From Sipunculus nudus (taxonomy: Eukaryota; Annelida; Sipuncula; Golfingiida; Sipunculidae), in NCBI GenBank assembly GCA_026874595.1, contig CM049307.1:61966370-62030369 (forward strand): a stretch of DNA of 64,000 bases. Direction: 5' to 3'. Under the pieces are notes generated by a model. The model ran no database searches, was not told where the DNA came from, and saw only the letters and a list, made by a program, of their open reading frames with translations. The translations under genes were made by a program, and so were the position numbers. Positions 2,109 to 60,841 of this stretch are shown one piece after another. The first letter of the stretch is position 1. Each line of letters opens with the position of its first letter.

Positions 2109-3607
2109 TCCGCCAAAATGAAGTTTTGCGGATACTATGTTTTTGACCAGGTTCCGCCGCCGCTGCGTTTGTTTCCGGAGAACTCCTCTGAGACTACTGG
2201 ATGGATTTTTCTGAAACTTACACGAATTATCGGGTCACATGTGAACTGGGGCCTAACCAATTGTCCTTGACCTCTGACCTTTCCTCTCTGCCCATCGTCC
2301 ATTTGTGTGTCTGTTTCCACACATAAACCCACATATCTCGGAACTGTTTGACCGATCAGGAAAAAAAATTGGTACAAATGTAGCCCTTGGAGAGCTTTAT
2401 AACATACACAAAAAATAGTGGCGCCACCTGCAACCATGCTTGCACAGTGTCCTTCTGTTCATCTGCCTTGGGTTAAATTCACTCATATCTCCGCATGCAT
2501 ATTCATCCTGGATAGCTTTCTTGATTTTATGACAGGTGGCGCCACCTACATTCACTTTCAAGCTGCAGACATCCATGCTTATATCTCCGGACTGGTTTGA
2601 CATATCTTTCTGAAAATTTGCACGTGTATAGATCTCACATAGCTCGTTATCATACACAAAACTGGTGGCTCCACCTGCAACCATTTTTGCACAGCGTCCA
2701 TCTGTTTGTCTGCCATGGAATAAAATCACTCATATCTTGGCAGTGGTTTCACATATCTGCCTAACATTTTGCAGGTTTATACCTCTGGGACTGCTTTCTT
2801 GATTTATGACAGGTGGTGCCACCTGCATCTGTTTGTCTGCCATGGAATTAAATCACTCATATCTTGGCCTTGGTTTCACATATCTGCCTAACATTTTGCA
2901 GGTTTATACATCTGGGACTGCTTTCTTGATTTATGACAGGTGGTGCCACCTGCATTTTAGTTTATGCTGTAGACTTCCAAGCTTGTATCTCAGGAACCGT
3001 TTGACTGATTGGGCCAAAATTTTGCATGTGTATAGATCTCACATAACTCCTTATCATACACAAAACTGGTTGTGCCACCTGCAACCATTTTTGCACAGCT
3101 CCTCCAACTCGGTAGTAGTTTGACATATCTGCCTAACATTTTGCAGGTTTATACATCTGGGACTGCTTTCTTGATTTATGACAGGTGGTGCCACCTGCAT
3201 TTTAGTTTATGCTGTAGACTTCCAAGCTTGTATCTCACCAACCGTTTGACTGATTGGGCCAAAATTTTGCATGTGTATAAATCTCACATAGCTCTTTATC
3301 ATAAACAAAACTGGAGGGGCTACCTGCAGCCATTTTTGCACAGCTCCTGTCTGTTTGTCAGCTGTGGGCCAAAATCAATCATATCTCAGAAGTGGTTTGA
3401 CTTATCTGCCAAAAATTTTGCATGTGTATACATCTTGGTTAGCCTTCTCGATGTTTTTGCAGGTGGCGACACCTACATACACATTTCATGCTAATATGCA
3501 ACACACCTCACTATTTCCCCGTGCCACTCCATCCATGCCTCACTTCATTTGTTCCAGTCTAATTTTGGCGGATACACATAGTAGCTTGTCGACTACCCGT
3601 CTTCTAG
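2109..3607 (+). mobile_element. Helitron-like non-autonomous element, family 1, copy A
   Basis: The 5' end begins TCC with a hairpin (arms TCCGCCAAAA and TTTTGCGGA) then GGATACTATGTTTTTGACC and CCGCCGCCGC. The body is tandem 140-280 bp units that repeat ggtggcgccacct, tttttgcacag and atatctc. The 3' end has a hairpin (GTAGcttgtcGACTAC region), then CTAG at 3604-3607 followed by TT. No Rep/helicase ORF is present, so mobility would need a partner element. Confidence 0.7.
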
Positions 3608-7941: not shown

Positions 7942-9140
7942 CTAGAATATGGGTAGTCAACAAGCAACTACTTGTATCCACCAAAATCAGAGTAGGAAAG
8001 GTGAAGTGAGGCATGGGTTGAGTAGCAAGGGGGAATAGAGTGAGGTGTGTTGCATAATAACCTGGATGTTTGCAGCCGAAATGTGTATGAAAAGAGCTAT
8101 GTGAGATCTATAATCATGCAAAATTTTTGCCAAATCGGTCAAATGGTTCCTGAGATATGAGCTTGGATGTCTGCAGCGTAAATTTGAATGAAGGTGGCGC
8201 CACCTGTCATGAAACAAGAAAGCTGTCAAGGATGTATAAACCTGCAAAATTTCAAGTGGATAAGTCAAACCACTGCCAAGATAGGAGTGATTTTATCCCA
8301 AGGCAGATGAACAGATGGATGCTGTGCAAAAATGGTTGCAGGTGGCGCCACCAGTTTTGTGTATGATAAAGAGGTATGGGAGATTTATAAACATGCAAAA
8401 TTTTGGCCCAACTGGTCAAATGGTTTCTGAGATATGATCTTGGATGTCTGCAGCTTAAACGTTAATGTAATGCAATTTAAGGCAGATATGTCAAACCACT
8501 GCCGAGATATGAGTGATTTTATCCCACGGCAAACTAACAGACGGACGCTGTGCAAAAATGATTGCAGGTGGCGCCACCAGTTTTGCGTATGATAAAGAGC
8601 TATGTGAGATCTATAAACATGCAAAATTTTTTACCAATCGGTCAAATGGTTCCTGAGATGTGAGCTTGGATGTCTGCAGCTTAAACGTGAATGTAGGTGG
8701 CACCAACTGTCATAAAATCAAGAAAGCTGTCTAGGATGTATACACATGCAAATTTTCAGGTGGATAAGTCCAACCAATGCAGAGATATGAGTGTTTTTAT
8801 TCCAAGGCAGATGAACAGATTGACGCTGTGCAAAATGGTTGCAGGTGAGGCCACCATTTTAGTGTATGTTATAAAGCTTTCCAAGGGCTACATTTGTGCA
8901 AAATTTTTAGCCTTATCGGTCAAACGGTTCCTGAGATATGTGGGTTTATGTGTGGAAACAGACGCACAAATGGATGCTGGGCAGAGAGGAAAGGTCAGAG
9001 ATCAACCAAAAATGAGGGCGCAGCGGTTCACATGAGACCAGATAATTGGTGTAAGTTTAGGAAAAATCTGTCCAGTAGTCTCAGAGGGGTTCTTTGGAAA
9101 AGAACACAGCGGCAGCGGCAGAACCCGGTCAAAATTATAA
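7942..9140 (-). mobile_element. Helitron-like element, family 1, copy B (5' end decayed)
   Basis: On the minus strand the 3' end is intact (hairpin, then CTAG at 7942-7945 followed by T). The body has at least four units with GGTGGCGCCACC (8193, 8341 and others). The 5' side fades after the CCGCTGCCGCTG stretch near 9110 and lacks the hairpin and GGATAC start. Confidence 0.65.
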
Positions 9141-12779: not shown

Positions 12780-13108
12780 CTAATGCACCTTGACTTTGCT
12801 TCGCAAATACTTGGCTATAGTGTACAACACATCTACAGGCCATGCAAACTCATTAGGGATGACACCCTGTACGCTGGACTCAAAATAAGAGAACAGGGGG
12901 AACCATATGCGGGTCCGTCGTCCGTCAGGCTGCATCAGGGCTTTGTTATTGGCAAGAGTATGGTAGTAGAGGAAAAGTCGAGAGGTTATGTAGTATGCGA
13001 TGAATACGTCGATGGAATAATGCTCATGAGCAGCGAGAATGAAGAAAATCCCAAACATGTTCATGACCCACGTGGTGGTGTGTAACCAGTGCATGCGACG
13101 AGGGGAGT
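12780..13108 (-). CDS. SAMD8: SAMD8 coding exon 5 (second catalytic histidine, stop)
   Basis: Acceptor ctttgtttcag before 13108; stop TAG at 12780-12782. It encodes [20 protein letters not shown], then [20 protein letters not shown] with the second His and the Asp of the catalytic set, a last membrane helix and a soluble tail ([19 protein letters not shown]-like) as in vertebrate SMSr. Confidence 0.95.
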
Positions 13109-16100
13109 CTGAAACAAAGAAGGTTTAAATATGAGCAATTGATAACATTTTAACACCGGAAACAACTAAAGATTTTAACATCTGAAATTAATGTTTATCA
13201 ATTATCATTTGAAAACAATCATACCAAAGATCTCTTTTATTATAAGACTATTTAATATTATTCAATCTACTAAATACAGTTACTATTTTATTGGTATTTT
13301 TATTCATCTGTATGCATATGTAAATATGATTTTAACAATATACATGTAAGAAAATATACCAAACCACTGCTCACATCACCACAATGGATAAAGATACCAA
13401 TAATATACAGAAATTCCATACATACCAATATATCAATTTTATATTGTAAGAATACTCAGTTGTATATGATTAATTTTTTTACTAATTGATTAATTAATAC
13501 AATGCCAGCCTAAACAGAAAACATTTCCACTAGTTTTAAAATATGTTAATTTCCAGCATAACACAAGTGTGACATTACCGTAATGTCTACATTAGTTTGT
13601 ACCATGCATTACTTCATACACCCTATTTTCTCCAAAAAGATATTTTTATAAATAGTCTGTAATAATTGGTACATGTAAATGCTGGCGCAATATTAGGGGA
13701 TTCCCCTTGACAACATCCAATATGACTAGACTATAAGAAATGTGCCAGCCATGTTTTATTTAATCCTTACAGAGTCATTTTATGCATATCTTCTAGTTTC
13801 ATGTCTTTCTTTATTTATTTACCAATGTCACAGCATTGGAAGAGATTATGTAAAATAAAATACATCTGAGTTCAAGACTACTTCACTTTATGGATTCCTG
13901 AGACAGTGGATGAATCACAGATGATTCAGCACATCAAAATTAGTCTAGTTGAAACGCCATATTTTATAATTTAAATTATTTTCTTAAGTAAGATGTTTAT
14001 TATAATGTACTTTGCCAAGAAATAGATATGTGAAGCGGACATTTCTGGAACCATGAAAAGGGGCAGGATAAATCCAAGCACAAGCGCTTACATTCACATA
14101 TGAAGAAGTTGAGCAGTGTGACTGCGACTGTATGACCACTGAACATGTAGTCACCACATGTCCGCACTCCCTGAATGCTCATCCCTAGACCTTTGGATAT
14201 CGTTACAGCTCTAGTCATCTTGGCCCACAAGTCACCATATGGCTGAAAATAATTAAAACACATTTATAAATCATTAGGACATTTTCTGACAGTGCAGGTT
14301 TTGAGCTTTGTATTCACTAACAAAGAAATGAAATACAGAGTGTTAAAACTACCATTTTGTGTCTCCAGTCTCTTCCAGCAACATCAGGAAAATAACATCA
14401 GTGTTGTGCCAATTAATGGATTATATCAATGATTGGTCGGGTTTTTTTTAATTAATCAATTAAATCATTTGCATTTGTGCATATCTGATCACAAACAATT
14501 ATGTAAGCACATGCAAAATAGTCATATTATCGAGAAAACAATTTTCTAATTGTGTCGGGGATATATAAAAGACAGGGCACAAACCAGTGAACAGCAATAA
14601 AACCTAACTTTGTGCAACATAGAATTGTAAAAATTCTGGCCATTACATTGGCCTTTCAGGATAATATAAAAGTAAGACTGAGTTTATACGGTTAATATTG
14701 CAGGTATAATTCTATACAATAAATTTCATGTTAATATAGATGGTACATTGATCATCGGTCGTCTTTTATCTTTCAGTCACTGAATATGATTTGAAAAACA
14801 ATCCCTACCACTAGATAACAAGCTGCAATTTGCCACTGTAGCAGTTTCAAACAAATGATGCTGTGACAAATTCACTAAAATTTTAGTTTTTAATATGTAA
14901 ACATTTAAAAATGAAAATGTTTCAACAAAATTGTCAATTTCATTTAATATGTTAAAATAATACTGTCAGGCTTAGTGCATTTAGGATATGAAGTGTTTTG
15001 GTACTTTTGCAGTTAAGCAGACATTCCAATAAACCAAGTTTCGATTAAGTATATATATACTTTTACCTGAGGCTTGCAATCCAGATGATGACCAGGTACT
15101 GATAGTGACGTGATGATCATGGTGAAAGCTCTAAGTAGAAAGATGGTGCCAGCCAGACAGCACAGGCGCCGCAGAATGATGAACCTGAAGTACAATATCA
15201 CAGAGAATGCTTTAAACAAGAAGATGGTGAAAGCAAGACAACATACACTGCAGGATTATGAGCCTGAAGAACAAGACCATAGTGCTCTAAATAAGAAGGT
15301 GGTGCCAGCCTGACAACAGAGGCACTGCAGGATGATGAACCTGAAGTACAACATCATAGTAAACGCTCTAAATAAGAAGGTGGTGAGAGCAAGACAACAT
15401 ACACCGCAGGATGATGAACCTGAAGTACAATATCACAGTGAATGCTCTAAATAAGAAGACGGTGACGGCAAGACAACATACACCGCAGGATGATGAACCT
15501 GAAGTACAATATCACAGTGAATGCTCTAAATAAGAAGGTGGTGACAGCAAGACAACATACACCGCAGGATGATGAACCTGAAGTACAACATCATAGTAAA
15601 TCCTCTGTATAAGAAGGTGGTGCCAGCCTGACAACATACACTGCAAAATGATGAACCTGAAGTACAATATCACAGTAAATGCTCTAAATAAGAAGGTGGT
15701 GCCAGCCTGACAGCAGAGGCACAGCTGGATGATGAACCTTAAGTACAATATCAAAGTGAATGCTCCAATCAAGATGATATATATTCAGCATTATTTCACT
15801 ACAAAATCACAAATTAGTTTATTTACACGAGTTCCATAAAATACCAGAATAATTTACATAGCTTACAATAAAGCCCATACATGTTGGATCAAAAATCATT
15901 TCAAATGCAGTCTATAAAACAATGGAAACTTTCAATTAATGGCCATTGGTTGGAGCTGCATTTTTCCCTTTGAATGATAATGCCTGTAATGGGAGTGGTT
16001 ATGAAACACAAAGCCTAAATTCCTAAAGATAATTTAATATCCAAGTTTTGGTCCTTAGGGGTATTTCCAGTAATTATCAGTAATACCCAGTAATTATAAA

Positions 16101-19100
16101 CTAAAGATCAGGAGGTCATTCCGATTTCAGACTGAATTCTTTAATGGCTAATATGCTGTTTACATACATTAACATCATTATATATTTCAGGGTTAGCATT
16201 TGACCTAGGTAAAATCTGTTTTTCCCCCAACCCAGTGGATAAACCTGGGTTAAAAGTATTTTACCCATTCATTACCTAGGGTTTTGCCGAGTTTATCATC
16301 CAAGCTTCTTCAATGTTCATATGCTTTTATCAAGTAAGCAACACACCCATTTTCTTTCTGTTTTGGCAGCAGAAGTTATACACACATTCTGGGAATACTG
16401 GTGGCAAGCAGACTTGCTCTAGCCACAACATCCCTGTTAAAATGATGCAATTTACCACTGACACTTCAACTCATTTTTGGCTATGCAGAGCACATAACTG
16501 TACTCATTAGGAATTTAGTGTAAAACCAGGATTCCTGGGCAATACCTGGGTAAAACCTAATCTACCCAGCCCAGGTTTTATCCAGGTGTTACCTGGGTTT
16601 TACCTATGAACCCTGATTTATCTAAACAGTCTTATGTCATACTCACCTATGATTGTGAAAGAACAAAATAATACCAAGGATACCGAAGAGTACCATCCCT
16701 GTCACTTCACACATGACGAACGCCCATGGAATGTAGGGAAGGTTATCTAGCACTATGTCTGGCAGGGGAGGGTACTTCTTCATATCTGGAACACGGTCGT
16801 GACATACAGCCATAGCCATAGCTGTGATCAGAAAGACACCATAACAGTAAAGGCCACTTATAACTAACTTGGTGTACTCTGGTTTTAATGCTGTGCAGTA
16901 TTTACCAGAATAATCGTCACCATTATCACAGGTATCAATATAATCAGATGAGGTAGAGAGTTCGCTGTCCAGTCGATGGACCTTTTTCCGCCTGATATTG
17001 GGAACTGTAAGGTATCCTCCAGAGCTGGAAACTGTGGGTGGTGCATGCAGTAATTCTTCTTCCATAAAACTGACGTTTTCCCTCTGTAACTGAGTAATCT
17101 GGCGTGATAAACGTTTTATGTCACCTAGGGAGGTCATGGACAAAGGAGAGCTCCGAAGATCATTTTCTGTCATCATGAGTAAGACGGATCCATCCACTTT
17201 GTGACTGGAAAATAGTGACACCAAATGACCAAACCCTTTACTCTCCATCCACTGACCAACGTCCTGCACAGTCCACAATGTGACATCATCAGGACTTTCT
17301 AATCTTTTTCTGCAACAGGAAATTTGACAAGCATTAGTACTCAAGTCAATCAATGAAACCCTGAAGATAAATATTTCCTATAATCTGTTTAAAGTACACA
17401 TCTGTACTTGAAACCTTATTTTTCAAAACTTATTGATTTTGCAAATTCATATCTGAAAATTGCTACACAACCCACAGTAGGACAGACTCTACCTATCAGT
17501 CCAGGGCCTGAAAATTGGACAATAGAGCAGAGCCTAACATTGTGGGCTGCATGTAAAATCCCATAAAATGGCACATGTAGTTAAAGGAAAGGACAAAGGA
17601 AAAAGAAACAGATGAATCCAGCCAATGCAAGTATAGCAAAGGCAGATACGGCAGACAGAAAGTGGGAATTTCTGTGGAAGGTTAAGATATCACATACAGT
17701 GTTTTGCTCCAGGACATTACATGTTCTGAAGAGGCACTGGCAACAATACATAATATTGGCTCATGGAGTAATATTTGCTCATAGTAAGTCAACATACCTG
17801 TCCAATGTGCATAGAAGAAATGAAAAAAAGCACCATGTGGATCCTATGTACGTAGTGACACTTAGGATGGGGATGTCAGAGCAAATTCCTAATACTGCAT
17901 GAAAAGAAATTATCCATAAGACACAGTACCTGGTACTAAATTTTAACAGTGCAAACCTAATGGTAGAGGAAATACTACAATACGCACCTGTGGTTTAACC
18001 CCAACACAAATAGAAAGGGAATTTGGAGGAAGCAGGGGTAGAAGTGTGAACTGGTTCAGTTTTGCATGTGAGGTTTGCCAGGAGACATTAATCTGAATAT
18101 CTGAAAATGGCCAAACAATCGGGGACGAGGGAATTATCTTGAAAATTGATGAATTGAAATTTGCCAAACAGAAGTACCATCAGGGTCATGTTGTCAAGGG
18201 GGAATGGGTTTTTGACAGGCATGAGAGGGACAATAAAAGATAGTTTTCATGTTCACAGTTATCATGTAACAGCTGATACAGCCATGAGTCTTAATGTCAT
18301 TAGTCAAACATATTGACATATTTCATTTTTTTTTAAATTTTGTAATAAACATTAACCAACAAATTAAACTCCTGGAAAAGACTTGGAAATTTAGATTAAT
18401 TTAATATAATCAACTGCATCCTTGTCTATCATTAACTTGCTTCACATAATCCCTAATAGTAAACAACAATTTTATTTAACTATTTATTTTTCATTTTTAT
18501 GATTGAAATGAAATATACCCAATAGTGACTGCATGGTGTCATTTGAAATACATTTTCAGTCATCCAGGGAAGATCCATAAAACTAAAGTACATGCAAAGT
18601 TATTCCCTGTTACTCATTATCTATAAAATTCCTTTTCCATCATTTTTTTCTTAAAGTAATTATTATAAACCAATATTTTTTTTTAAATTGATTATTGTTA
18701 TGTCCAAAACAACTACTAGAGGATGGGAGTTGGACAGTTAAACCCAGCTAGAGCAACCCAAAAGCTGGCTGGGTGCAGAGTATGCCTCACCTAAAGCATG
18801 CATAATTGGCCTGAAAGGTCAATAAGGTGACATATAGGCTTCACTATAGCCTAGGTATGACATGGTCTCATAAAAACTTTAATAAAAGCTACAGTTTTAG
18901 GTCAATTCCTTCTAAATTTCAGAATTTAGAAGCTGAAATCCTTATGTGTGATATGAAAATTAAATCAACAGTGCTTACAGGGAAATAACATGCCATGGCC
19001 AAAGTTGGGCAAAATTTATGGTACTGATTTTATATTAATTCAAATAACATATTAAATTTTAAAAAAATAAGATCTAAATTTTGACATACAACCGAATTTC

Positions 19101-21084: not shown

Positions 21085-22261
21085 TCCGCAAAAACAGAGT
21101 TTTGCGGATACTATGTTTTCAGCCGACCGCCGCCGCCGCCGCGTAGGTGTCCGGAGAACTCCTCCGTAACCGCTGGGCGGAATTTTACGAAGCCGGGATT
21201 ATGTTCCGTCACATGTGAACTGCTGCGCCCCGATTTTGTTTTTACCTCTGACCTTTCCTCTCTGCCAAGCGTCCATTGGTGCGTCTGTTTCCATACATAA
21301 ACCCACATATCTCGGGAACCGTTTGACCGATCAGGAATAAAATTTTGTACAAATGTAGCCCTTGGATAGCTTTATATCATACACAAAAAATGGTGGCGCC
21401 ACCTGCAACCATGTTTGCACAGTGTCCATCTGTTCATCTGCCGTGGGATAATATCATTCATATCTCGGAAGTGGTTTGACTAATTCACCTGAAATTTGGC
21501 ATGCGTATACATCCTGGATAGCTTTCTTGATTTTATGACAGGTGGCGCCACCTACATTCTAGTTTACGCTGCAGACATCCAAGCTCATATCTCGGGAACC
21601 GTTTGACCGATTGGGCCAAAATTTTGCATGTGTGTAGATCTCACATAGCTCTTTATCATACACAAAACTGGAGGGGCCACCTGCAATCATTTTTGCACAG
21701 CGTCCGTTTGTTTGTCTGCCGTGGGCTAAAATCACTCATATCTCTGCAGTGGTTTGACATAACTGCCTAAAATTGTGCAGGTTTATACATCCTGGACAGC
21801 TTTCTCGATTTTTTGGGCAGGAGGTGCCACCTACGTTTATGTTAACGCTGCAGACATTCAGGCTTATATCTCAGGACTGGTTGGACATATCCCCTGAAAT
21901 TTTGCATGTGTATAGACCTCACATAGCTCGTAATCATACACAAAATCGGTGGCGCCACCTGCCATCATTTTTGCACAAGTCCTTCTGTTTGTCTGCTGTG
22001 GGTTAAAATCACTCATATACATGTAGTGGTTTGACCTTTTGCCTAAAAGTTTGCATATGTATACAACTTGGACAGCTTTCTGGATTTGTGGTAGGTGGAG
22101 CAACCTACATACACATTTCGGCTGCAGACATCCATGCTAATACTAGTATGCAACACACCTGACTCTGTTTCCCCTTGCCACTCAATCCATGCCTCACTTC
22201 ACCCGTTCCACTTTGATTTAGGCGGATACACGTAGTCGCTTGTCGACTACCCGTATTCTAG
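21085..22261 (+). mobile_element. Helitron-like element, family 1, copy C (best preserved ends)
   Basis: 5' end TCCGCAAAAACAGAG with the perfect hairpin GTATCCGCAAAA / TTTTGCGGATAC, then TATGTTTT and CCGCCGCCGCCGCC. The body is tandem units with GGTGGCGCCACC. 3' end GTAGTCG-cttgt-CGACTAC hairpin, 7-nt spacer, CTAG at 22258-22261, then TT. This layout (5' TC, 3' hairpin a few bases before CTRR) is the Helitron signature; the central tandem repeats recall Helentron-associated HINE/DINE-type elements. Confidence 0.75.
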
Positions 22262-31489: not shown

Positions 31490-34400
31490 CTGCAATAAAA
31501 AATAAAACATTTTTAGATTGAGAGAGGTATCTCATATTATGAAATGTGACTTCATACATTTTGCGACAAGTAAAAATGACCCATGGCATGGCCCAAAAAA
31601 CTCAGCATAATATTATGTGTAGAATCTGTACACCTTTTGTCACAATCATCATTTGATTCTTATATTCAGCTTGTAGTCAGTTTGAAATTGTTATATACTG
31701 TATTACGATCAGTAATCAGACCAGTGCTGACATCTATTGACAGAATAAAGAGTTCCAAGACTGGACAACTCACTGAGTACCATTGGTAACAGTTTTCTCA
31801 CATTGTTCAGAATTTTTCTTTCAAGAGATTCAAGTCCTCATTTGACAAATATTTGAGTGAGAAAAACTGTGTCTTAAATGGATTCTTGAGGGAACAAAAA
31901 TACAAATGGTCACCTTCCTTACTTGTAGCAGAACAACTTTTCTTTTATGATAAAATTTTATATTTGATCTATACCTGCCTTATAGTAAAGAGTGGGATTG
32001 CATGTAATGAGAATTTGTCTGACCTTGCGGAGGACGACCTCTCCGTTCATATGCATGGACAGGCTACTGAAGTGGAACAGCATCTCATCGGCTGGCAGGT
32101 CCTGCTGAACGACATCTTCTCCGTAAACCGAAATGATTGCCAGTACAACAAATAGGTGGAAGTAGTCTGTCTGGTAGTGAGCCCAGCATGCCTCCCAGAT
32201 ACGCAAAGCCTCGGGAGCTGGGAATTCTCGTTTAAAACACAACAGAATCCACCTGAAGGAACAGAACAAAATCATAAATAATGGCCTAATGAAAAACCAA
32301 ATCCACCTGAAAGAACAGGATGGTTTATTGCTATTTTGCCAGATTCACTGTTATATTCCCAGATTCCCTGTTATTTTCCAAGATTAACTCCTATTTGCCA
32401 GATTCACTGTTATTTTCCAGACTCATTGCTATTTTCCTAGATTCTTTGCTATATTTTAAAGATTCACTGCTATTTTCTCAGAATCATCGCTATATTGCCA
32501 TAATCATTGTTATTTTCCCAGATTCAATGTTATTTTCCAGGATCATTCCTATTTTCCCAGAATCATTCCTTTTTTCCCGGATTCACAGGTACTTTTGAAG
32601 ATTTGCAGTTATTTTTCCAGATTCATTGTTATTTTCCCAGATTTACTGCTTTTCACCCAGATTCACTGTTATTTTACCAGTTTAATTACTTATTATCAGA
32701 TTAACTGTTATTTTCCCAGATTCACTGCTGTTTTCCCAGATTCACTGCTATTTTCCCAGATTCACTGCTATTCTCCCAGATTCACTGCTATTTTTCCAAA
32801 TTCATTGCCATTTTCCAAGATTCATTATTTTCCGAGAATCACTGCTATTTTCCCAGATTCACTGCTTTTTCCCAAGATTCACTGCTATTTTCCTAGATTC
32901 ACTATTTTCCCAAATTGCTATTTCCAAGATTAACAGCTATTTTCCCAGATTAACTGCTATTTTCCCAGATTCACTGTTATTTCCCAGATTCTCTGATATT
33001 CTCTCATATTAACTACTATAACCCAGATTCACTATTTCCCAGATTCACTGTTATTTTCCAAGATTCACTATATTCCAAAATTAACTGCTATTTCCAAGAT
33101 TCACTATTTTCCCAGATTCACTGCTATTTTCCTAGATTCCTTGCAATTTTTCCCAGATTCACTACTTTTCTCCAAGATTCATTGCTATTTTCCTAGATTC
33201 ACTGCTATTCTCCCAGATTCATTGCTATGTTCCCAGATTCACAGTTTGAATAAATAAGACACTGATATAACAATCAAGATTAAAACAAAATCATACCTTG
33301 TGAAATATTTCAGTAAAAAAAAGACAACATTTTAGATATCAACTATTGCAGATGAGGTATTTAGCAGTGTGAAGGATAATGAACATGTTTAACCTTAACA
33401 CAGAAAAACATATGCTATTTTGGGTACTGGTCTTATTAAAAAATACATGATACATAAGTATCAACAGAGCTGCTGTGGCAAAGCATCATATAACATTACA
33501 CTGATATATCATAATATATAATGGGTCTGAGTCGGCTGTTTAGTCATAAAACACCAGTGTCCCCAGGAGATCCATCGTGAAATAGTAGCCCACTATGAAT
33601 AAAATGTGTATAATAGGCTTGGTTCAAATGCAAATGCGTTTAATTACATTTCAAAATGGCACATTTGTATTTAAATTCAGAGCTACTGATAACTCTGCAA
33701 ATGCATATACATATGAGAATGATAATCTTAAATTATCAAATACAAACATATTACTTGAGTCCCATCTTGCAATGAAAAGGCAAGACAGTTTCATAAGAAT
33801 AGTGAAATAAGTTTCCAATATGCTAATCTACCATATTGACTGGTTTCAGAACCATGACATTATTCATTACATTATGCACACACACCTTGATATACTAATG
33901 CATCTGTGAGTGCACTGTATTTGCATTTGATAAATAATATAATATTGCATTTGATAATATTTAATCATTTTTCCATCTGATCTGAAATATGCATTTTTAA
34001 ATGTGCTGAATTGCATTTGAACCCTGGCCTAGTAAACAAGATTTCTTTACTGATAATTTTGCCGTTCATATTGTGTATAATTTTGCTTCTGATAATTTCT
34101 ACATTCATACCTGTGGCAGAACAAGAGAGCCATCCCATCCTGCATCTTCATCAGATGCTTGTAGAAGCGAGGCAGCATGATACGAATCAGCTCACCCAGG
34201 TACATCTGAAAGTACAACATGACATCATAGTGACAGAGGATAAAAAGTGCAGAGGGTCTAGTCTGGTAGCAATAGTCACTGATGCATAAAAATATTTATA
34301 TTACTTATTATAACTGACTGTGGCATTCAACCATTGGCATATAAATCCTATGTGGCCAAGCCAGTATTTGGTTTTGAACTGTCACCAACCATGTCCTAAG

Positions 34401-37400: not shown

Positions 37401-40400
37401 GTACCTTTGTTTTCGTATATTCTGGTATTCAATGTATTTGTCATTGCGGATCTGTTCACGCTCCTCGTACGTGGATTTGTATGGGTAGTAGTGCAGGAGG
37501 AACGGCCACATTTCATGTCTCAGGCCCGGGTCTATCCCAGCAAAGAATACTGCCTGAAAGATATAATTATAACAGTCTGTCAGTTGTTCATCAGCTATAT
37601 ATAAATATGTACAGGTAAGGCTTAAAAGAAGACTGGGTCCTCAAGCACTTCAAAAATCAGTGTGGCAGGGACAATTTATTTTGAAATTTTTCAATAAAAA
37701 TTTCATTTAATCAGGGGAAAACAAAAAAAAATTACAGAACTGTTTGATAAACAGTTAAACACACATCTTATCAAAATAAAAATAAAATTTTTTTGAAAGT
37801 TAATTATTTTATTTTCTTCAAAGAAATGTCTGAGGATCTGGAGCTCAAAACTGGGAAATTTCTGAATATTAAAATTTGTTATTAAGTATTACAATCTGTA
37901 TTTGTGTAATCAGATATCCATTTATTTCAGCCTTGAATTAATCTTACCACAGTATATGACTTCAGTTTTCAATGTTTTCTGCATACTTACAGAAAAAGGT
38001 TTACAAATAATATCTGAAGTACAGACATAACATTACAACATAAGTTACTTAGACTGGTTGCATATTCCCCTTCAGTCAAATGTTAACACCACAGATATAT
38101 GGTTTTTATTACTCTCTCTTTCCACTAGAGACAGCTGCTATGTAAACACAGGCATTGAACTTTGACCTTCTTTTACATAAACCACACATACCATCTGTAG
38201 AAGATTAAAAGTTTATGTATAACAACATGAATCTTATACTGAAGTGGGTTCCACTGATATAATAAAAAAGAAACATACAAATTACGATCATAAAAGTTCT
38301 AACATGTTTTTTCATTCAGTGTGATTCCTGCAGGAAGTGTTAACACTGACAGACGTGGAAATAATGTGAAAATGAGAGACCTGTGGTGGAAATTGAACAC
38401 ACTTATCTAAGAACTACAATATTTGCTGTGGTAATGATGCTAAAAAGTTCCTTAATGTTACCTTTCTGAGGGTGAGGTCATCTTCGATTTGACCTTGATC
38501 GTTCATATGCTGTTTCCATGTGGTATCGTTGACCATTTCATAAGCACCTTCCTCCGGGTGTGCCTGGTCATCAGGCAGGTATGGCCGGATAACAGAGAAC
38601 TGTTTGCACCTCATAGGGTCATCTTTACGTCGTTTGCTCTTACCCTGGGCAAGGAAGTTCCAGTCACTGAGGCACTCGGCCAATTTGTCCAGTCCACCAT
38701 GGTGAAAGTACAAAATCTTATACTGACTCTCCCGGCTAGCGATGACTAGTTGGCCTCGTGTGCAGCTGTCGTTGTTGTAAAATAGTCGTAGAGATCTCAT
38801 CTGACCTGAAATGATAAAATTATATAGAACTAATTAAAAGTGGCTTTGTTGTTGATGGGACAGTGAAGCATACAAGCAATACTCTTAAATAATGTGAAAT
38901 TAGAAATAACATGGGCCTAATATTGGATTTTCGATGGGTCATTAACCCTCATAGGTGTCAATCTTCAGTAAAATTTTTATGGAATTTACTTGAATGATTC
39001 TTGAGATAATGCATGCAAAAGGATTTCAAGTTCTCCGCCTCGTGGCCATATTGGATTTCTGATGGATCTGAATCTGATAGTGCACATCCCCTCATGGGTA
39101 TCAGTCTTTGGCAAAATTTTCACAGCAATTGCGTGAACAATTTGAGATAATGCCCATGAAAGGAGTTCCAAGCTCACTGCCTGACAGACATATTGTATTT
39201 CAAATGGTTCTGAAGTTTACATCCTCTCACTAGCTTCAATCTTCCCTAACATTTTCATGGCAATTGCTTGAATGGTTCTTGAAACAATGCATGCAAAAAA
39301 ACCCATGGACAGACAGATAGAAAGCCTGATTACTATATATAGGGCGCCAACCAAGGAGTGACCTTAAATAAGGCTTTAGCAGCATCCTGAAGTGATGTGA
39401 TGGTGTAATACTGAGTGACTCATTTCTCTGAGTGACTTTGTGGCATATATCACAAATTTCAGCATTCCAAATATATGTGACTGAAGTGCTTGGGTATATC
39501 AATACAGAGTATCAGTTGCAATCAGTAACACTCTAAGCTGATGTGTGTTTACAGCACTGGATATCACCTAAGGTAGTACTGCACTGAGCATTTCTTTAGA
39601 AACCTGTTAAAAATTGTAAAAACAGCTTGACATTTTTATCTTATATATGACATTTCTTTCAAGAACATGAATGGGAGAAATATTTCAAACTGTTAAAAAA
39701 GATGTGCATCTTGGTGTTTGTTTTTACTGGTGGGTCACAGAGATGATCGTGTGCTGTAATAAAAATGTTCTTTGGTGGAACTGCTGTGAAACAGATAATA
39801 CAATTCTTACTTACCCAGATCAACAGAAAAGACCCCACAGACTTGCTCTTTGGCACTCTTGGTTGGTGTTTCACCAGCATTGCGACCAACTTTGACAGCG
39901 TTTTCCGGAAATGTCATGTTATGAGTCATGTTGAAATCTGGAGAACCTGGAGTGTCAAGAAACTGGTGATGGACAGGGGAACTGCTGGCGGAGTCTGATG
40001 AGTATGGTGTCGGAGGATGTGAATCTGGACCCGAAGTTGGTGTTGACGACAATGAATCTGTAACATCTGTCACCGAGATGTCTGGTGTTGTCACATTAAT
40101 TGGGTAAGATCCATTCACGGAATTCAATTTAAGATCTAAAGACTGTTTGAGTTTCTCAACACTATTTGACCCATTTATTTTTTCACTTGCTGCATTTGGT
40201 GCACATCCAGATGTTGAAGGCTGAGATTTTGTCAGGTCAGGATCGTTTGCCTCTGTGGCGAGATTCTGTATGTTTTTCTGCAGTTCTTGCAGCATTTTGT
40301 TATAGCGCTCACTGCCAGGACTAGGGAATGTGGAGTCTGAGCTGAGACTCATGCTGTCAGCGTCGGTGCTCATCCCACTGCTGCCACCAGTTTGTGATCC

Positions 40401-43400
40401 TGATGCCTCAGCATGACCCAAAACTTTATCCTCCCTTTGTTCATCAAATGGTGAATCCTCAATTTCCTCTGTCACAACCATCAAGTTATCACCCTCCATT
40501 TCAATGCTGACAGAGCGATTTGAACCAGTTCTCTCAGACGTTGATCTCTCACGAAATTTTTCATTCACTTTGTTCTGTAACAGGGCAGTGAGCTGCTCCT
40601 CTGTGGGGGGACTTTCACATGATGAAGACTCACTGTCATCCTGTTCGCATTCTGGATTTGGCCTCTCTTTGGTTTTGGCGATTAAGGGATCATTCTCACT
40701 AACAAATTCGTTTTGACTTCTGCCATTGGAATGTTGATAGTCCATTTTCTGGCTAATGCCTGACGACTTTGGCTTGCTGTAAGTGGGAATGATACTTGAC
40801 TTGTATATGTCAGAAACATCCTCTGGGCCAATTCCAGAATCAGCTTGAGACTTGAAACTGTTGTTGTACTTGTCTGATGTCATATCATAGTTACTGGAAA
40901 CATCAGAGCTGCAGGTGCTGGTTTCATCTTTACTGAGCCTCTTTTTGGTGTGTATCGGAATGCCGCACTCCTCATAAACACCAGGACTAGATGTGTCATT
41001 GGTGGACGATAATGGAGAGGATACACCATCTTCGTTCCTCTTAATATATTTTGACTCAATAGGGGGCGGGTTTGATTCAGTGGGAGAAGAATCGGCACTC
41101 TGGGATTCCTCAAGGGCATACTCTTGGCGGGGTGAACGACGAGGGCTGATTCTTGGGCTGATCTGACCATGGTTAGGACTATTTTCAATACTGCGTGGAT
41201 TCTTCTGTAGGGTTGAGTTGGGGATCCATGTCAAAATTAGAGTGTTCCCTAGAACCTGGAATACACGAACAAAGGCTGAAGTATTTCATGTAAACCTATT
41301 AACATATATAATTTCAAAGGGAAGGCTTACAAAATGAAGACTGATGATGAACTCTAGGCTGATGTCTCTCCCTGGTGTACATAAAGTTAATTAAAATATG
41401 CATAAATATAAAAATATTAATGAATGCTAACACCCAAAAACATGAAGGATGCCTGCTAGCATGTACAGACAGCTGCATGCATCAAACAGTGAAAGACGCA
41501 AGATGAACCAGGTAAATCATAAAATGGGTGAATAATAGAACAACAATAAAAAAAAAATAGATTGGAATTGTAAATGTATTCTCCTTCCTTTGTCTATGCT
41601 TCTCACAGTCCATAACAGAACATCTTGGGATTTGCAACATGGATCCAAGTTTGAAACCCACCTTACCCTGGTCTTATTGGTCTGAACCTTCTTGGTCCTG
41701 TGCCAAATGCCTGGTGGTAATACCCAGCATACCATGTTATTGCAAGCATCAGCTACATGAAAGGAGTTAGGTAACTACTGCTGTATGCAACTGCTGTAAA
41801 AAAAGGAGTTTACCTCAATCAGCCCACATGTTTGTGTGTGGCTCATATGGACTATGTATATTAGCATATACCATGGTATTTGCACTATTTGTATCTGTCA
41901 GGAGGGTATACATTCATCCCAATTTGTGTTTGTGTGTGTGTTTGTTAACAACATAACCAATCATGAATGGAATCTTATGAAATTTTCAGGGCGTTTCTGG
42001 AAAGGGCCAATAAAAAAATGTACATGATCCGAATTCAGGAACATCATCAAGGAATATTCACAAATGTACAGTCACTTATGCACGAATGAACCTGGGAATA
42101 TGGGCCGTATAAGTGAATGCAAACATGGGTTTGGGGGCATCCCACAATTGAGACCCCCCCCCCCACATGGCGGAGGCTTGCATTAATTAGAATGCAGATT
42201 TCTAGTTGCAGATTAAACTTTCAGGGCTTATTTAGGATCTACTTGAGTTTATATTTATAGTCAGCTAAGCTGACATTTAATTTTCTAAAAATACAATAAG
42301 CATTCAACTACCTACTCAATTCTAAAATTTAACATTGCTGTACCTTACCATCAATAAAATTAAAATATCTATCTCATATTTTACTGCTGCTGTCAGGTCA
42401 TGCTATTCTGAGCATCTAAATATATAATTTATCATACAGCACTTATCTGACACTGCACAATGGTTTATTAGGTCTGAGTTCATGAGAATGAATGTTAGCA
42501 GAGTAAAATAAATATTGCAAAGATCAATAGAAATGTTGTGTTAGTAGTGCTGTATGGGTTACATATTTAAGGCAAATTGTAAAATGCTTGGCTGGGTGCC
42601 AATGTAGTGGTTATGGCACCAGGAGGGTGCCCAAGAGACAAATATGACTGGTCATAAAACCTCCCAAGGACCAAAAACAGTAGAAATGACAAAAGGATGG
42701 TCATGCTATGAGAGTGGCCCTAAGGCATGGTTTCACTACACTGCCAAACATCCAGACCTCTAAGATATTACCATAAATATGCCAACTAAGAAAAGTTCTC
42801 CCTGATACTGGAAAGTGAACTTTTTCCAGATGTATAACACTGAAATTTCCCAGAGTAATAACTCATGACTGTACAGAATTGGTAGACTGTAGTTGGCTAA
42901 CCAACCATTTGTGCAAAGGACAGGTCAGTTTTCTTTCATACTCTGATGCTTTATGTTTTCTGAATGAATCTTTTAAGTAGCATTCAATGTATCACCAGAG
43001 CCAGAGTACTGCATCAATGAACACAGGGCTTAGAAGTACATAATCCAAGATTTATAAATCATTAAAGATACAGATGGTGGCTCCCCTTACAGTTCGATCG
43101 ATAATGGAGTTGAGTTCCCTGACTAAGCTAGAGAAGTAAATTCAACAGAATAACACTGTTGCCATGAATAAAACAATTAATGGGCCCCTTTTGACTCTTA
43201 ATAAAATCTCTCTGCAGGAGCTGTGAGGGACCACGGTGAGGAGGGCATGAATCATACTTGTCTGCATGAATTACAGCCCCTAGCTGCCTGCTTACTTCCT
43301 TCATTTTAGGAATTATAATATCTATAGAAACAACAGTTGGTGGCCTGTGAGGGTCACTATCAACTAACTACAAATTTCTTGGCATCTGAGATCCCATAAT

Positions 43401-46400
43401 ATCCCCAGACAATTAATGCATATCCCCTTCAAAAACTAGAATACGGGTAGTTGACAAGCGACTACGTGTATCCGCAAAAATCAGAGTGGAACGGGTGAAG
43501 TGAGGCATGGATTGAGTTGGCAGATTTGATCTTAAGTAAAGGTCAAGGGCACAGGTTTCAAACTCTTTCAACAACTTATCACCTGAAAATTTTCATTTTG
43601 ATTTTCAGATAGATCCATCTATTATCTTGAGAAACAATATTTTTCACCAAATATGGAAATATTCAAGGTCAACCAAATCTCATAGGCCAGGTAATGACCC
43701 CAATTTATATATAAGTCATCCCATAACCCATATCTATGTACATACATAATATGAAAGAAATCTGTCCATTAGTTTTTGACAGTACTATCAAGTGGCAATG
43801 ATGGGGGTATTAACAAGCACAAAAATATGAAAGGACAAAAAAGGTGCCTACTGTCTCCCACAGAAGACAAAGCTTTCAAAGATCTCTTTTAATTTGACCA
43901 ATTTGATTTTTGGACCAATCCATGCCTCCCTCATTGAGTTATTTAAGATTTTGTGGGATTTCTTGAAATATGGAAATTTTTAAGGTCAAGGCCACTTTTA
44001 TAGTAAAGGTCATGATCCTAATTTATATATATACGTGATCCCATAACCCATATCTATGTACATGCATAATTTGAAAGAAATCTGTCCATTAGTTTTCGAC
44101 TTACCAGTATAATTCTCACAGTAATGTCAAGTGGCAATAAGGAGGGTATTAAAAGGTGCAAAAACAAGAAAAGGATAATAGGTAGTGCTACCAGTTTCTG
44201 GTACATGACAATGCTATCCAAGATCTTTGGTCAACTTTTTTTTGATCAACCAATGCAAGATTTCTTGAGACATTTAAGAATTTGTGTGATTTTCCCTAAA
44301 AATTGACCTATTCAAGGTAAAAGACACTCTCCTAGTAAAGGTCATGACCCCATTTTAAATAGGCTTTGTCTTATCACCCATATCTAAGCATATGTCAAGT
44401 TTGGTAAAGATCTGTAAAATTTTTTAGAGTTATTATGCAGACAAAATTTATCTGTGCCGACAGCGTAACACTCATAAAACCAAAGTATCTCCTCGAGTTT
44501 GTCTGGGGATAAAATAATGGTTTTAATCATAAAGTAAGCACATCACATTATCATAATAAGAGCTACTAATGCTCAACAATTAAGCCAGCCTCCCATCTAC
44601 CTATTTTGTGTTTAGGCTGACTTTTTAAACCGGCCAGATAAATCTGTAAGTCTCACCAGCCCACACACCTAGCGATTTTTCCTGCAGACTGCCAATTTCT
44701 CCGGTCACTTTGGTCACTTCTGGTTTTGTCTCCAGGATTGTTATTGCCATAAAGAATGATAAAAAGAAGGAAAGGCAGGTTGCAAATCAGCTGTTTTTTT
44801 CAGTTCTGTCATCACATCTACCAGAAAGAAATTTCCAGCCACATGAAAACTGTCAAGGATTTTTGCAGCCTATTTTGCCTGCCAGATTTTTTCAAAAGAT
44901 CTGGCTGGCAGCACCCTCCTATCAACCAATCTTACCAATTTTTCAGGATGGCAAAAAAAATTGGCCAGAAAAATTGGTAGTGTCAAACCTTACTATTATG
45001 AATGATTGTGCCGACATGAGAAGTCTGATAAAAGTTTTGCCTGTTGATTTAGATGTGGTACATTTGCAGCTAAGGATCTGTAGCCTAGGTCTGTTGATTA
45101 AGATGCAGTGGTTCCTGCATGAAACATCAAGTTATTGTATACATTATAATGACAAACATCATATAAACATATACAGGACTTCTTTGTGAATTAACAACAA
45201 ATTCCTGAACTGGAAATTTTAATAGGGACTTAGTCAAGATTTCTTCTTCTAATTGGGCATAAATAATGGAATAATGAAAATACTAGAATGGTGGGAAGTT
45301 AACCTATGGTGTTACCTATCTTAAATGCAATTTTTTCTCCATGAAAACTAACTGACACTTCAGGTTTCAAATGACTGACATGTACCGTAAGCCAAAAGGT
45401 ATAAATTCAATAATGCTGAGAGTTTTTGCTGAGATGAACAGCTCGCCGATGAAAATGTCACTTGACATAATTTCATGTGAAATTTTTACCACATAACCAC
45501 TGTCACACTATGACAAAAAATAAAGAAAAACTTTTTTTATTGTTATGAACAATGTTATGAACTGGTTACTTGCTTATATCATTATTCTTTAGTTTTGATG
45601 CATAAATATTAACTAGACATTTCTTGGCACTGCAGGTGCCAGAGTATCCCCAGACATAGTAGCCCCCCCCCCCCCTTTAAGAATAGACCCCCATTTTTAG
45701 CAGCATATACTGACACTTGGCATATTTATTGTTTCTTCCATCTAACAATCCACAATCTTGTTGAAGATGTTGGTCCTGTGACCTTGATCTTTTTAAAGAT
45801 GTGTCCTGTGACCTTGACCTTTGACCTCATGACCCCAAAATCAATTTGGGTCTTGCTTTTCCAATGGGACATATGCAAGTCAAGTTTGAAATCTATACAT
45901 CAATAAAGCAGGAATTATCATCCAGAAACTAATTTTTGGACATATGGCTCCTGTGACCATCACCTTTGACCTTGTGACCTCAAAATTGATAGTGTTCTTC
46001 CTCTCTTGGCAGGAGAACTACATGTGCAAGACGAAAGATCTGAGATGAAATGTGTGGCTGAAAATGCATCCACATCTTTTTAAAGATGTGTCCTGTGACC
46101 TTGACCTTTGACATCATGACCCCAAAATCAATTTTGGTCTTGCTTTTCCAATGGGACATATACAAGTCAAGTTTGAGATCCATACATCAATAAAAGCAGG
46201 AATTATCATCCAGAAACTAATTTTTGGACAGATGGCTCCTGTGACCTTCACCTTTGACCTTGTGACCTCAAAACTGATAGGGGTCTTCCTCTATTGGCAG
46301 ATGACTTATATGTGCAAGATGAAAGGTCTGAGATGAAATGTTTGGCTGAAAATGCATCCACAATCCTTTTAAAGATGTGTCCTGTGACCTTGACCTTTGA

Positions 46401-49400
46401 CCTTATGACCCCAAAATCAATTGGAGTCTTGCTTTTTCAATGGGACATATATAAGTCAAGTTTGAAATCAATACATCAGTAAAAGCAGGAATTATCATCC
46501 AGAAACTAATTTTTGGACAGATAGCTCCTGTGGCCTTGACCTTTGACCCCAAAATTTATATGGATCATCCACTATTGGCAAGTGAGCTATATATTCAAGA
46601 TGGAAGACCTAGGATGAAAGTTTGGCTTAAAATGCATCCACAGTATCTTTTAAAATGCCAGTCCAGTGACCTTGACGTTTGACCTCATGACCCTAGAACC
46701 CATAGGGTTCTTACTTTAGTGGTGGGCCATACATAAGTCATGTTTGAAATCCATATGGCTATCAACACTGGAGATATCATAAGAGGTGTGTGATTTTCAC
46801 CATATATGGCAATATTCAAGGTCAAGGCCACTATCATAGGAAAGGTCATGACCCCAATTTAAATAAACATCATTCAATAACCCATATATACCTATGTATA
46901 TGCATAATATAAAAGAAATCTGTCCATTAGTTTTTGACTTATAATGCTCACAGTACTGTAAGGTGGCAATTTTGGGGGTATTAAACGGCACGAAAACAAG
47001 TAAAGAATAATAGGTGGCACCACCAGTTTCTGGAACATGACAGCACTATCCAAGATCTTCCATCAAGTTGATTTTGGGATAAATCCATGCAAGATTTCTT
47101 GAGATATTAAAGAATTTGTGTGATTTTCCCCAAAATTGGACCTATTCAAGGTCAAGGACACTCTCCTAGTAAAGGTCATGACCTCATTTTATATAGGCGT
47201 CGTCCTCTTACCCATATCTATACATATACCAAGTTTGGTAAAGTTCCGTGAAATATTTTTTGAGTTATCATGCCAACAAGATTTATATGCGGCGGCGGCG
47301 GCGGCGGGGGGAACGGTATGAAAACATAGTATCCCCTGACTTTGTCTGGGGATACAATTATATATTTTAAATATAATACACTTGATTTTCACATAATATT
47401 ACTATGATATACTGTCATTGTAAGTGACCAATGTAACGTTTGATTTCTATCCTACATATTAACTTTTCCTTTATGTAAAATAAATTAAAATTACGTTTCT
47501 CATGAAGGCATTATTAGGTGATACTGTCTTCTAAATTGAGAAGTTATTATTGGTTTTGTTACCACAGCTGCATGAGCTGATATAAGGCCCACATCAAGAG
47601 GTTGAAAATCAACACAGCACAGAGCCACTTAATTAAACCATTCATCATATGATAAAGAGACAACAGGCCATTGCAGCGACAGTGAATGGTCCCCCAGGGG
47701 TATAGTCGAAAACTGAGACCTCAATCAGGATTTAATATATCCGAGTTTGAGGTGGCATATACCGCCCTGCGGCTGAAATGTCCTCTCCTCTCCTTAGATC
47801 CATCATATCTCCTGCTGCCAAAACTGGTCCGTGTTATATGGGCTATTGTTAGAAAATCAATAATGTTGGGGCCAGGTTTTATACCAGTGGTTCTAAGCAG
47901 ACTCCTGCAGGCTGACAGCATCTGTTACAGTCTGTTCGTTCTAGTCCAGCTGCTGGGTTGGTTCTGATTCTATGATGCTGGTGAAAAACTGTTTTTTGCA
48001 TCTGATGAAGCAGTGACGATGGGTATGTCACATGGAGGTTGTGATAGGGTTATGGGCTTTCTTAAATTAGAAAAAGCTCTGGGTTGATGTGAAATATTTA
48101 ATACTGACAGCCATTTATTGCACAATGTCTTGTTTATTAAAGCACACATTGGCTTATTTTAAACATCAGCCTTTTCTCATTCACCACACAGTTATTTAAT
48201 TATTTGTGTAAAACAAGCAGAAATTTATATGTTATAACCAACATTATTGATTTAATTTAATGATTTAGTATATGTACAGTGCCTTTATTAAGCATACATG
48301 CTTAGAATATTGGGCTTTATAAATTTATATTAATAATAATAATAATAATTCATCCCTTTAGAAAATAATAATAAAATGAATAAATCAAGAAACATAATTT
48401 GTTGTAATTCAGTTGTCAAATTTTTGGAAATGAGCTTGGTCCTATACTTTTGGTCATTGGAACAAAGACCAGCAGAATAATCGTTTCAGTATTTTGATTA
48501 AAACAATGTGACAAATGGGTCATGATGCCAGGCTGAAACCTGACTGACAGCACTGTTTAGATATTTAAATTCTTTTATAACTGATGAGTGTTTAGAAATG
48601 GTAGTTAAATCATGTTCCATTAGTGTAGGACGAAAGCAACCAACGATTGATTATTAATCAGTTATATCTACCCATGTAATATTTTACAGAATTAACCCAC
48701 AAACTATAATTGACCACATGTTCCTTGTCTCATTGTTCAAGTGCCTCTAACAGATGTCAGTACCACTGACAGTTACTTGCTGGGAGATAAAAGTACAAAC
48801 AGATGAAAAAAAAAACTGCTATTGGATCTTGATAATTTGTAAATTTATGAAATAAACCCTTCCTTGCTTCAAGGCACACCTCTTTAAACAATTCCTCTTT
48901 TTTATACATACTGTAAACAGACAAGCCAACAAACATAAGGAAAATATAACCTCCATCCCAGGCTTCTGGCAGAGAAGAAAACAATACCACTGGAACTGTC
49001 CCTTCATCTGGATGCACTACAAAATTTACCCTCCATGGCCTGTCCAATCCTTACACAAAACTTTATGGAAATCAGATAAATGGTTTTAATGTAATCCAGC
49101 TAACATTCAAACCAACCAACAGACAGACACATGTTAAATCTTAACCTCCTTGGTGGAGGTAATAAAGCAATATTGAACTAGAATATGGGTAGTTGAGAAG
49201 CGACTACGTTGATCCGCCGAAATCGGAGTGGGACGGGTGAAGTGAGGCTTGGATTGAGTGGCAAGGGGAAATAGAGTGAGGTATGTTGCATATTAGCATG
49301 GATGTCTGCAGCTGAAATGTGTATGTAGGTGGCACCACCTGTCACAATATCCAGAAAGTTATCCAAGTTGTATACAAGTGCAAAATTTTTATAGGCAGAT

Positions 49401-57734: not shown

Positions 57735-57924
57735 CTAGACATTTCTTGGCACCGCAGGTGCCAGAGTATCCCCAGACATAGTAGGCCCCCACCCCCTTTA
57801 TAAATAGACCCCCATTTTTAGCAGCATATACTGACACTTGGCATATTTATTGTTTCTTCAATCTAACAATCCACAATCTTGTTGAAGATGTTGGTCCTGT
57901 GACCTTGATCTTTTTAAAGATGTG

Positions 57925-60250: not shown

Positions 60251-60841
60251 CCTAGAACCTATAGGGTTCTTACTTTAGTGGTGGGCCATACATAAGTCAT
60301 GTTTGAAATCCATATGGCTATCAACACTGGAGATATCATAAGAGGTGTGTGATTTTCACCATATATGGCAATATTCAAGGTCAAGGCCACTATCATAGGA
60401 AAGGTCATGACCCCAATTTAAATAAACATCATCCCATAACCCATACCTATGTATATGCATAATATAAAAGAAATCTGTCCATTAGTTTTTGACTTATAAT
60501 GTTCACAGTGCTGTAAGGTGGCAATTTAGGGGGTATTAAACGGCACGAAAACAAGTAAAGAATAATAGGTGGCGCCACCAGTTTCTGAAACTTGACAACC
60601 CTATCCATGATCTTATTAACTTGATTTTGGGATAAATCCATGCAAGATTTCTTGAGATATTAAAGAATTTGTGTGATTTTCCCCAAAATTGGACCTATTC
60701 AAGGTCAAGGACACTCTCCTAGTAAAGGTCATGACCTCATTTTAAATAGGCGTCGTCCTCTTACCCATACCTATACATATACTAAGTTTGGTAAAGTTCC
60801 GTGAAATATTTTTTGGGTTATCACGCCAACAAGATTCATAT

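Follow-up and report, generated by a model that had tools for sequence, protein, structure and literature searches.

A SAMD8/SMSr gene and the repeats before one of its exons

The window, a DNA stretch of 64,000 nucleotides, carries on its minus strand a gene that by sequence comparison is the SAMD8/SMSr orthologue: Pfam and PDB chain comparisons find both a SAM domain and PAP2_C in it, with SMSr as the nearest solved chain, in agreement with the gene assignment of an earlier note on this DNA. The SAMD8/SMSr product is a lipid-making membrane enzyme. The exons are given here with a slash marking the splice junctions.

16647..17309, minus strand: upstream exon with the SAM domain (PF00536, E 9.3e-15); donor TAG/GTGAGT, first intronic base 16646; acceptor end 17309 assigned without homology placement
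15067..15184, minus strand: coding exon next to the array, 118 nt; acceptor AG/15184; first intronic base of the donor 15066
14092..14242, minus strand: next exon, start of PAP2_C (PF14360, E 7.2e-7)
12780..13108, minus strand: last coding exon, PAP2_C, including the stop (PF14360, E 1.5e-15)

In the PDB, the 39 aa encoded by the exon next to the array hit the SMSr chains 8ijq at E 7.7e-13 and 8ijr at E 3.3e-12, and sphingomyelin synthase-related protein 1 (SMSr) is also matched by the last exon, at E 3.5e-40. Across the 16647/15184 join, 14 residues run gapless by eye against HKHR-SILLRRLCSL of the solved SMSr chain, a match pieced together from separate exon comparisons rather than read from one alignment across the splice. 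This gapless fit makes it very likely that 15184 is the genuine acceptor.

In the intron preceding this exon lie seven extra copies of its acceptor region, head to tail on the minus strand, which together with the real exon unit give eight units in total; the count of about eight copies proposed earlier is right for the whole array, the eighth being the real exon and not an intronic copy. TRF reports the array at 15122-15765 with a period of 79, 8.1 copies, 83% matches and a score of 807. Going towards the exon, the unit lengths are 81, 79, 79, 79, 79, 77 and 79 nt.

15749..15774, minus strand: distal partial unit, or pre-existing breakpoint similarity; 22/26 nt like the unit end
15668..15748, minus strand: unit 1, 81 nt; in-frame and open, 27 codons; acceptor AAG/G, first 'exonic' base 15737
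15589..15667, minus strand: unit 2, 79 nt; acceptor 15656
15510..15588, minus strand: unit 3, 79 nt; acceptor 15577
15431..15509, minus strand: unit 4, 79 nt; acceptor 15498
15352..15430, minus strand: unit 5, 79 nt; acceptor 15419
15275..15351, minus strand: unit 6, 77 nt; middle exon-like, with a 4-nt loss near the end; acceptor 15340
15196..15274, minus strand: unit 7, 79 nt; acceptor 15263; its end forms the upstream context of the true acceptor
15115..15195, minus strand: template unit, comprising 11 nt of intron end, the true acceptor and 70 nt of the coding exon

Each unit consists of about 12 nt of intron end, AG/G and, by hand alignment, about 69 nt of exon-derived sequence. The unit alignment and the SMSr homology of the exon thus bear out the earlier description of a repeat that runs from the 3' tail of the intron through the AG into a coding exon, and the array layout, with the exon matching SMSr chains, confirms that the real exon is the gene-proximal end unit of the cluster. 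The exonic part, given previously as 57 bp, comes to about 69 nt by hand alignment, and a diverged partial copy extends the distal edge of the array to about 15774. Local alignment of 15749-15900 with the unit consensus scores 36, compared to a mean of 17.9 and a maximum of 29 in 300 mononucleotide shuffles, and a short stretch, GAGC.TTCAC..TGAT, is present both at the distal edge of the array and in the exon. No further decayed units were found in 15901-16646 (shuffle p ~0.36) or in 15000-15100 (p ~0.14).

A 25-nt motif spanning the acceptor, allowed up to 3 mismatches, has 8 matches in the window, all of them at unit junctions, with a mean of 0.00 in 100 dinucleotide shuffles; a motif of the unit has 0 matches in the viral contig collection. 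Within 15067-15800 the best 24-nt self-match is 24/24, as compared to at most 18 in 60 shuffles, and 14900-16000 contains no inverted repeats of at least 20 nt. The array upstream of the exon has a G+C content of 42%, the exon one of 50%, and the remaining intron, like the window as a whole, one of 36%. Arrays of this kind can misassemble, and the draft genome of amphioxus seems, according to PMC3087553, to contain a misassembled version of the BflGb6 mirage. The substitutions and indels that separate the units argue against one read repeated over and over, so that an assembly artefact is scarcely credible as the source of the array; an error would be confined to the number of units, in particular of the most similar middle ones.

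The window holds other repeats and frames. A satellite family with units of 288-289 nt that contain CCTTGACCTTTGACC occupies 45787-46755 (3.4 copies) and 57908-60314 (8.4 copies); a 34-nt motif of the family has no exact match in the bacterial, archaeal and viral contig collections. Tandem units of 245, 226 and 278 nt lie at 2873-3348, 8259-8695 and 21306-22142, respectively, and their consensuses share the motif GGTGGYGCCACC (all by TRF). On the minus strand, 39810-41285 is an open frame of 492 codons for a serine-rich protein that matches no Pfam family at E 0.1.

Divergence and turnover of the units

The units are 73-84% identical to the exon unit and 76-96% identical to one another. The middle of the unit exists in two forms: it has the exon-like length in units 1 and 6 and a common 2-nt deletion in units 2, 3, 4, 5 and 7. 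In this single haplotype the inner units 3-5 are about 90-96% alike (3/4 96.2%, 3/5 93.7% and 4/5 89.9%, the last slightly under the 90.9% of 1/6), and unit 7, at one edge, shares 76-89% with the others. Edge unit 1, at 79-91% (90.9% to unit 6), is not clearly set apart, which leaves the edge pattern incomplete.

Unit 1 can be read through over 27 codons and ends in the frame in which it began; the first duplication was therefore probably of 81 nt and in frame, and we take the ancestral unit to have had, probably, this length and frame. An 81-nt open segment would have been duplicated first, perhaps through slippage or unequal exchange between short similar stretches at the segment ends. One copy would then have lost 2 nt, and the 79-nt form would have spread by unequal exchange or conversion, with purifying selection presumably keeping the exon copy intact. 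Summed over the seven related units, differences from the exon number 50 at third, 32 at first and 20 at second codon positions, an excess that leaves room for an early phase of coding constraint.

Around the acceptor, at -11..+9, the unit consensus has 0/20 mismatches to the exon, as compared to 16/59 elsewhere (hypergeometric 0.005, Fisher 0.008). Counted by cells, 4/140 differ from the exon in this core and 100/406 outside it, and no other stretch of 20 columns varies as little among the copies (1/81 circular shifts; permutation 0.012). The stretch was picked after the alignment had been viewed and the units are not independent, and so these statistics are to be taken as a hint. Two processes could account for the conserved core: conversion that includes the intronic side of the true acceptor and is weeded out within the exon, or selection on the decoy acceptors.

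The second of these possibilities is developed in an explanation that we consider unlikely, namely that the decoys, chiefly 15263, compete with 15184 and send a share of the transcripts to nonsense-mediated decay (NMD), tuning the level of SMSr with copy number as the dosage. All seven decoy AGs are kept, as this would have it, and the low variability of the core points the same way. However, with non-consensus cells at about 9% overall (50 of ~550), all seven units would fairly often retain the complete AG by chance, and the published mirages are reported, in the accounts we draw on, to leave splicing undisturbed.

Choice among eight acceptors

Splice sites were scored with an approximate human-type weight matrix. 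On this scale the true acceptor 15184 scores 4.6 and is only 29th of the 85 AGs in 14990-16720, and decoy 15263 ranks first among the same 85 with 11.2. Decoys 15577 and 15340 score 5.9, 15656, 15498 and 15419 score 4.6, and 15737 scores -0.4, placing three decoys above the true acceptor, three level with it and one below. By the same matrix, the other acceptors assigned to the gene score 7.2 (17309), 4.4 (14242, the top AG of 32 in its region) and 11.3 (13108, the top AG of 40 in its region). Drift in the exon-derived parts has also given rise to new AGs, 15706 in unit 1 (10.1) and 15309 in unit 6 (9.8), both of which score above the 4.6 of the true site on this matrix.

Since six of the seven decoys match or exceed the score of the true acceptor, site strength does not account for the choice of 15184, and exon definition is the likely reason. 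The spliceosome would normally pair donor 16646 with acceptor 15184, so that the array leaves as intron, and exon definition with donor 15066 would help: the true exon is 118 nt long, as compared to the 197-671 nt that would result from decoy use. The high rank of 15263, together with a resulting exon of 197 nt, the shortest of that range, is what the dosage explanation has in its favour here; as a score it depends on the human-type matrix.

If spliced to the upstream exon in its phase, each of the seven decoys would run into a premature stop, after 17 residues in four cases and after 28, 48 and 75 residues in the others. This outcome is expected under the dosage explanation, and it goes against the earlier suggestion that the array may create protein variants. 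A version of that suggestion, in which one or more units are included in frame and lengthen the protein in a hydrophobic segment, can point to unit 1, whose 81 nt are open for 27 codons and regain the same frame when read from 15737. With stops after 17-75 residues on all seven decoy readings of the present array, and with the 2-nt deletion in 5/7 units, we regard it as very improbable. Under the reading that we prefer, in which the array is removed as intron, rare use of a decoy would lead to a premature stop and decay of the message, and the array would be buffered rather than be a source of protein variants. Variant proteins are thus unlikely, and some NMD-targeted transcript is possible.

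The junctions themselves suggest one more route. AG/GT is found at 7/8 of them, the true one included, the exception being unit 7 with AG/GC, and introns are known to arise by tandem duplication of AGGT (PMC3443670, PMC4974935). The units might then be removed recursively as introns of 77-81 nt, each running from the AG/GT of one unit to the next AG and restoring the exon start. The donors at the junctions, however, score 1.5 or 0.5, compared to 11.0 for the authentic donor 16646 and 6.5 for 15066 (human-type matrix), and such removal is highly unlikely. More generally, as the best donors within the array reach only 3.4 against these authentic ones on the same matrix, neither microexons nor unit-introns are favoured. 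Removal of the whole array with the intron remains our preferred reading, and the array is probably harmless.

Boundary duplications here and in other genomes

Among titles and abstract starts we found no report that matches the splicing of SAMD8 exon 3. The closest known systems are the mirages of amphioxus, described in PMC3087553 as minisatellite-like tandem duplications of the 3' end of an intron and the 5' part of an exon (BflGb6), with an earlier report in Adh3. According to PMC3087553 and PMC3902484, the set comprises Adh3, the globins BflGb6 and BflGb9 and TnC, with imperfect repeats in PGBD5, and the data presented there suggest regular splicing. PMC3087553 further describes the mirages as variable in length, with inner units that evolve together and cluster boundaries that do not; in lancelet PGBD5, imperfect repeats of 60 and 108 bp lie at splice sites (PMC3902484).

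The array has the three anatomical features of a mirage, judged against what these accounts give: head-to-tail repeats of minisatellite size, a unit that lies across an authentic exon-intron boundary and, on our reading of PMC3087553, the authentic section at one end of the cluster. As in BflGb6, several units combine the 3' intron end with the 5' exon part and many keep AG/GT. Turnover may also be comparable, with middle units more alike, the comparison here being within one haplotype, in which unit 1 reaches up to 91%. The gene, SAMD8/SMSr, is a different one. The unit, 77-81 nt here, measures 150-160 in BflGb6, 157 in BflGb9, 60 and 108 in PGBD5 and 10-72 in Adh3 in the same sources, and unit identity is 76-96% here as compared to the 81-100% given for BflGb6.

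Two further cases are related. In the potato RdRp gene, where the geometry is the same, an intron was gained by tandem duplication over an intron-exon boundary (PMC4974935); that duplication has two copies and a new intron in use with RNA support, whereas ours has many copies. U2AF1 exons Ab/3 are tandem homologous exons under common control of the 3' splice site, in which a duplication that took in the upstream intron and an exon gives competing acceptors (PMC5224494), but there whole exons with their donors were duplicated and both are used, unlike the exon starts of our array, whose best donor scores 3.4.

Taken together, we put at roughly 0.8 the probability that the array is a mirage, that is, a minisatellite that arose by tandem duplication across the intron-exon boundary, is spliced out as intron and is neutral or nearly so. 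The evidence for an origin by boundary duplication is good; that for a function beyond intron filler is not.

A second, single duplication of an acceptor lies in the window, at an exon that matches RabGAP-TBC in Pfam (E 2.9e-7) and TBC1D17 and TBC1D15 chains in the PDB.

32241..32318, minus strand: single acceptor duplication at the RabGAP/TBC exon; 24-nt copies, 54 nt apart, 21/24 identical
32241-32264, minus strand: assigned RabGAP/TBC acceptor copy, first exonic base 32252
32295-32318, minus strand: upstream acceptor copy, first exonic base 32306

None of 400 dinucleotide shuffles of 32040-32325 reaches 21/24. With the phase assumed, the 54-nt copy is in frame and open, and the upstream acceptor would add 18 codons. 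Of eight reading frames compared with Pfam, one gave RabGAP-TBC, one (33981-34286) stayed below the curated cutoff and six gave nothing. Directly upstream of the duplicated acceptor, at 32329-33242, TRF finds about 47 copies of a 20-nt minisatellite.

The window was also scanned for local copies (24-nt windows, at least 20 matches, within 300 nt), which gave no support to the idea that acceptor-like sites are generally richer in local duplications. A local copy was found for 9/329 acceptor-like sites, five of the nine in the SAMD8 array and one at the TBC acceptor, for 18/607 offset control positions with the SAMD8 array unmasked, and for 45/4914 random plus-strand positions outside arrays. 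Among the acceptors assigned in the window's two genes, 2/5 have a local copy of at least 20/24, or 1/4 when the SAMD8 array itself is left out.

Both duplications in the window, at 81 nt (the inferred ancestral length) and 54 nt, are open and would fit a more speculative idea, which we hold to be improbable: that boundary duplications survive mainly if their first unit is open and its length divisible by three, that later frameshifts turn the copies into stop decoys that sharpen selection of the true site, and that the kept acceptor cores form a tunable spliceosome sink. In-frame open units would be tolerated because early ambiguity between equal acceptors would then cost little. Of the lengths published in the sources above, the 60 and 108 bp of PGBD5 (PMC3902484) fit, the 157 bp of BflGb9 (PMC3087553) does not, and BflGb6 at 150-160 bp (PMC3087553) fits neither way clearly.

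Arrays of this kind are natural tests of how the spliceosome chooses among nearly identical consecutive acceptors, and with a second acceptor duplication in the same window, counting such cases genome-wide is worthwhile. Should the host be other than a lancelet, the mirage kind would extend beyond the cephalochordate cases covered in PMC3087553 and PMC3902484. Mirages have been proposed, in the account of PMC3087553, as raw material for new introns.
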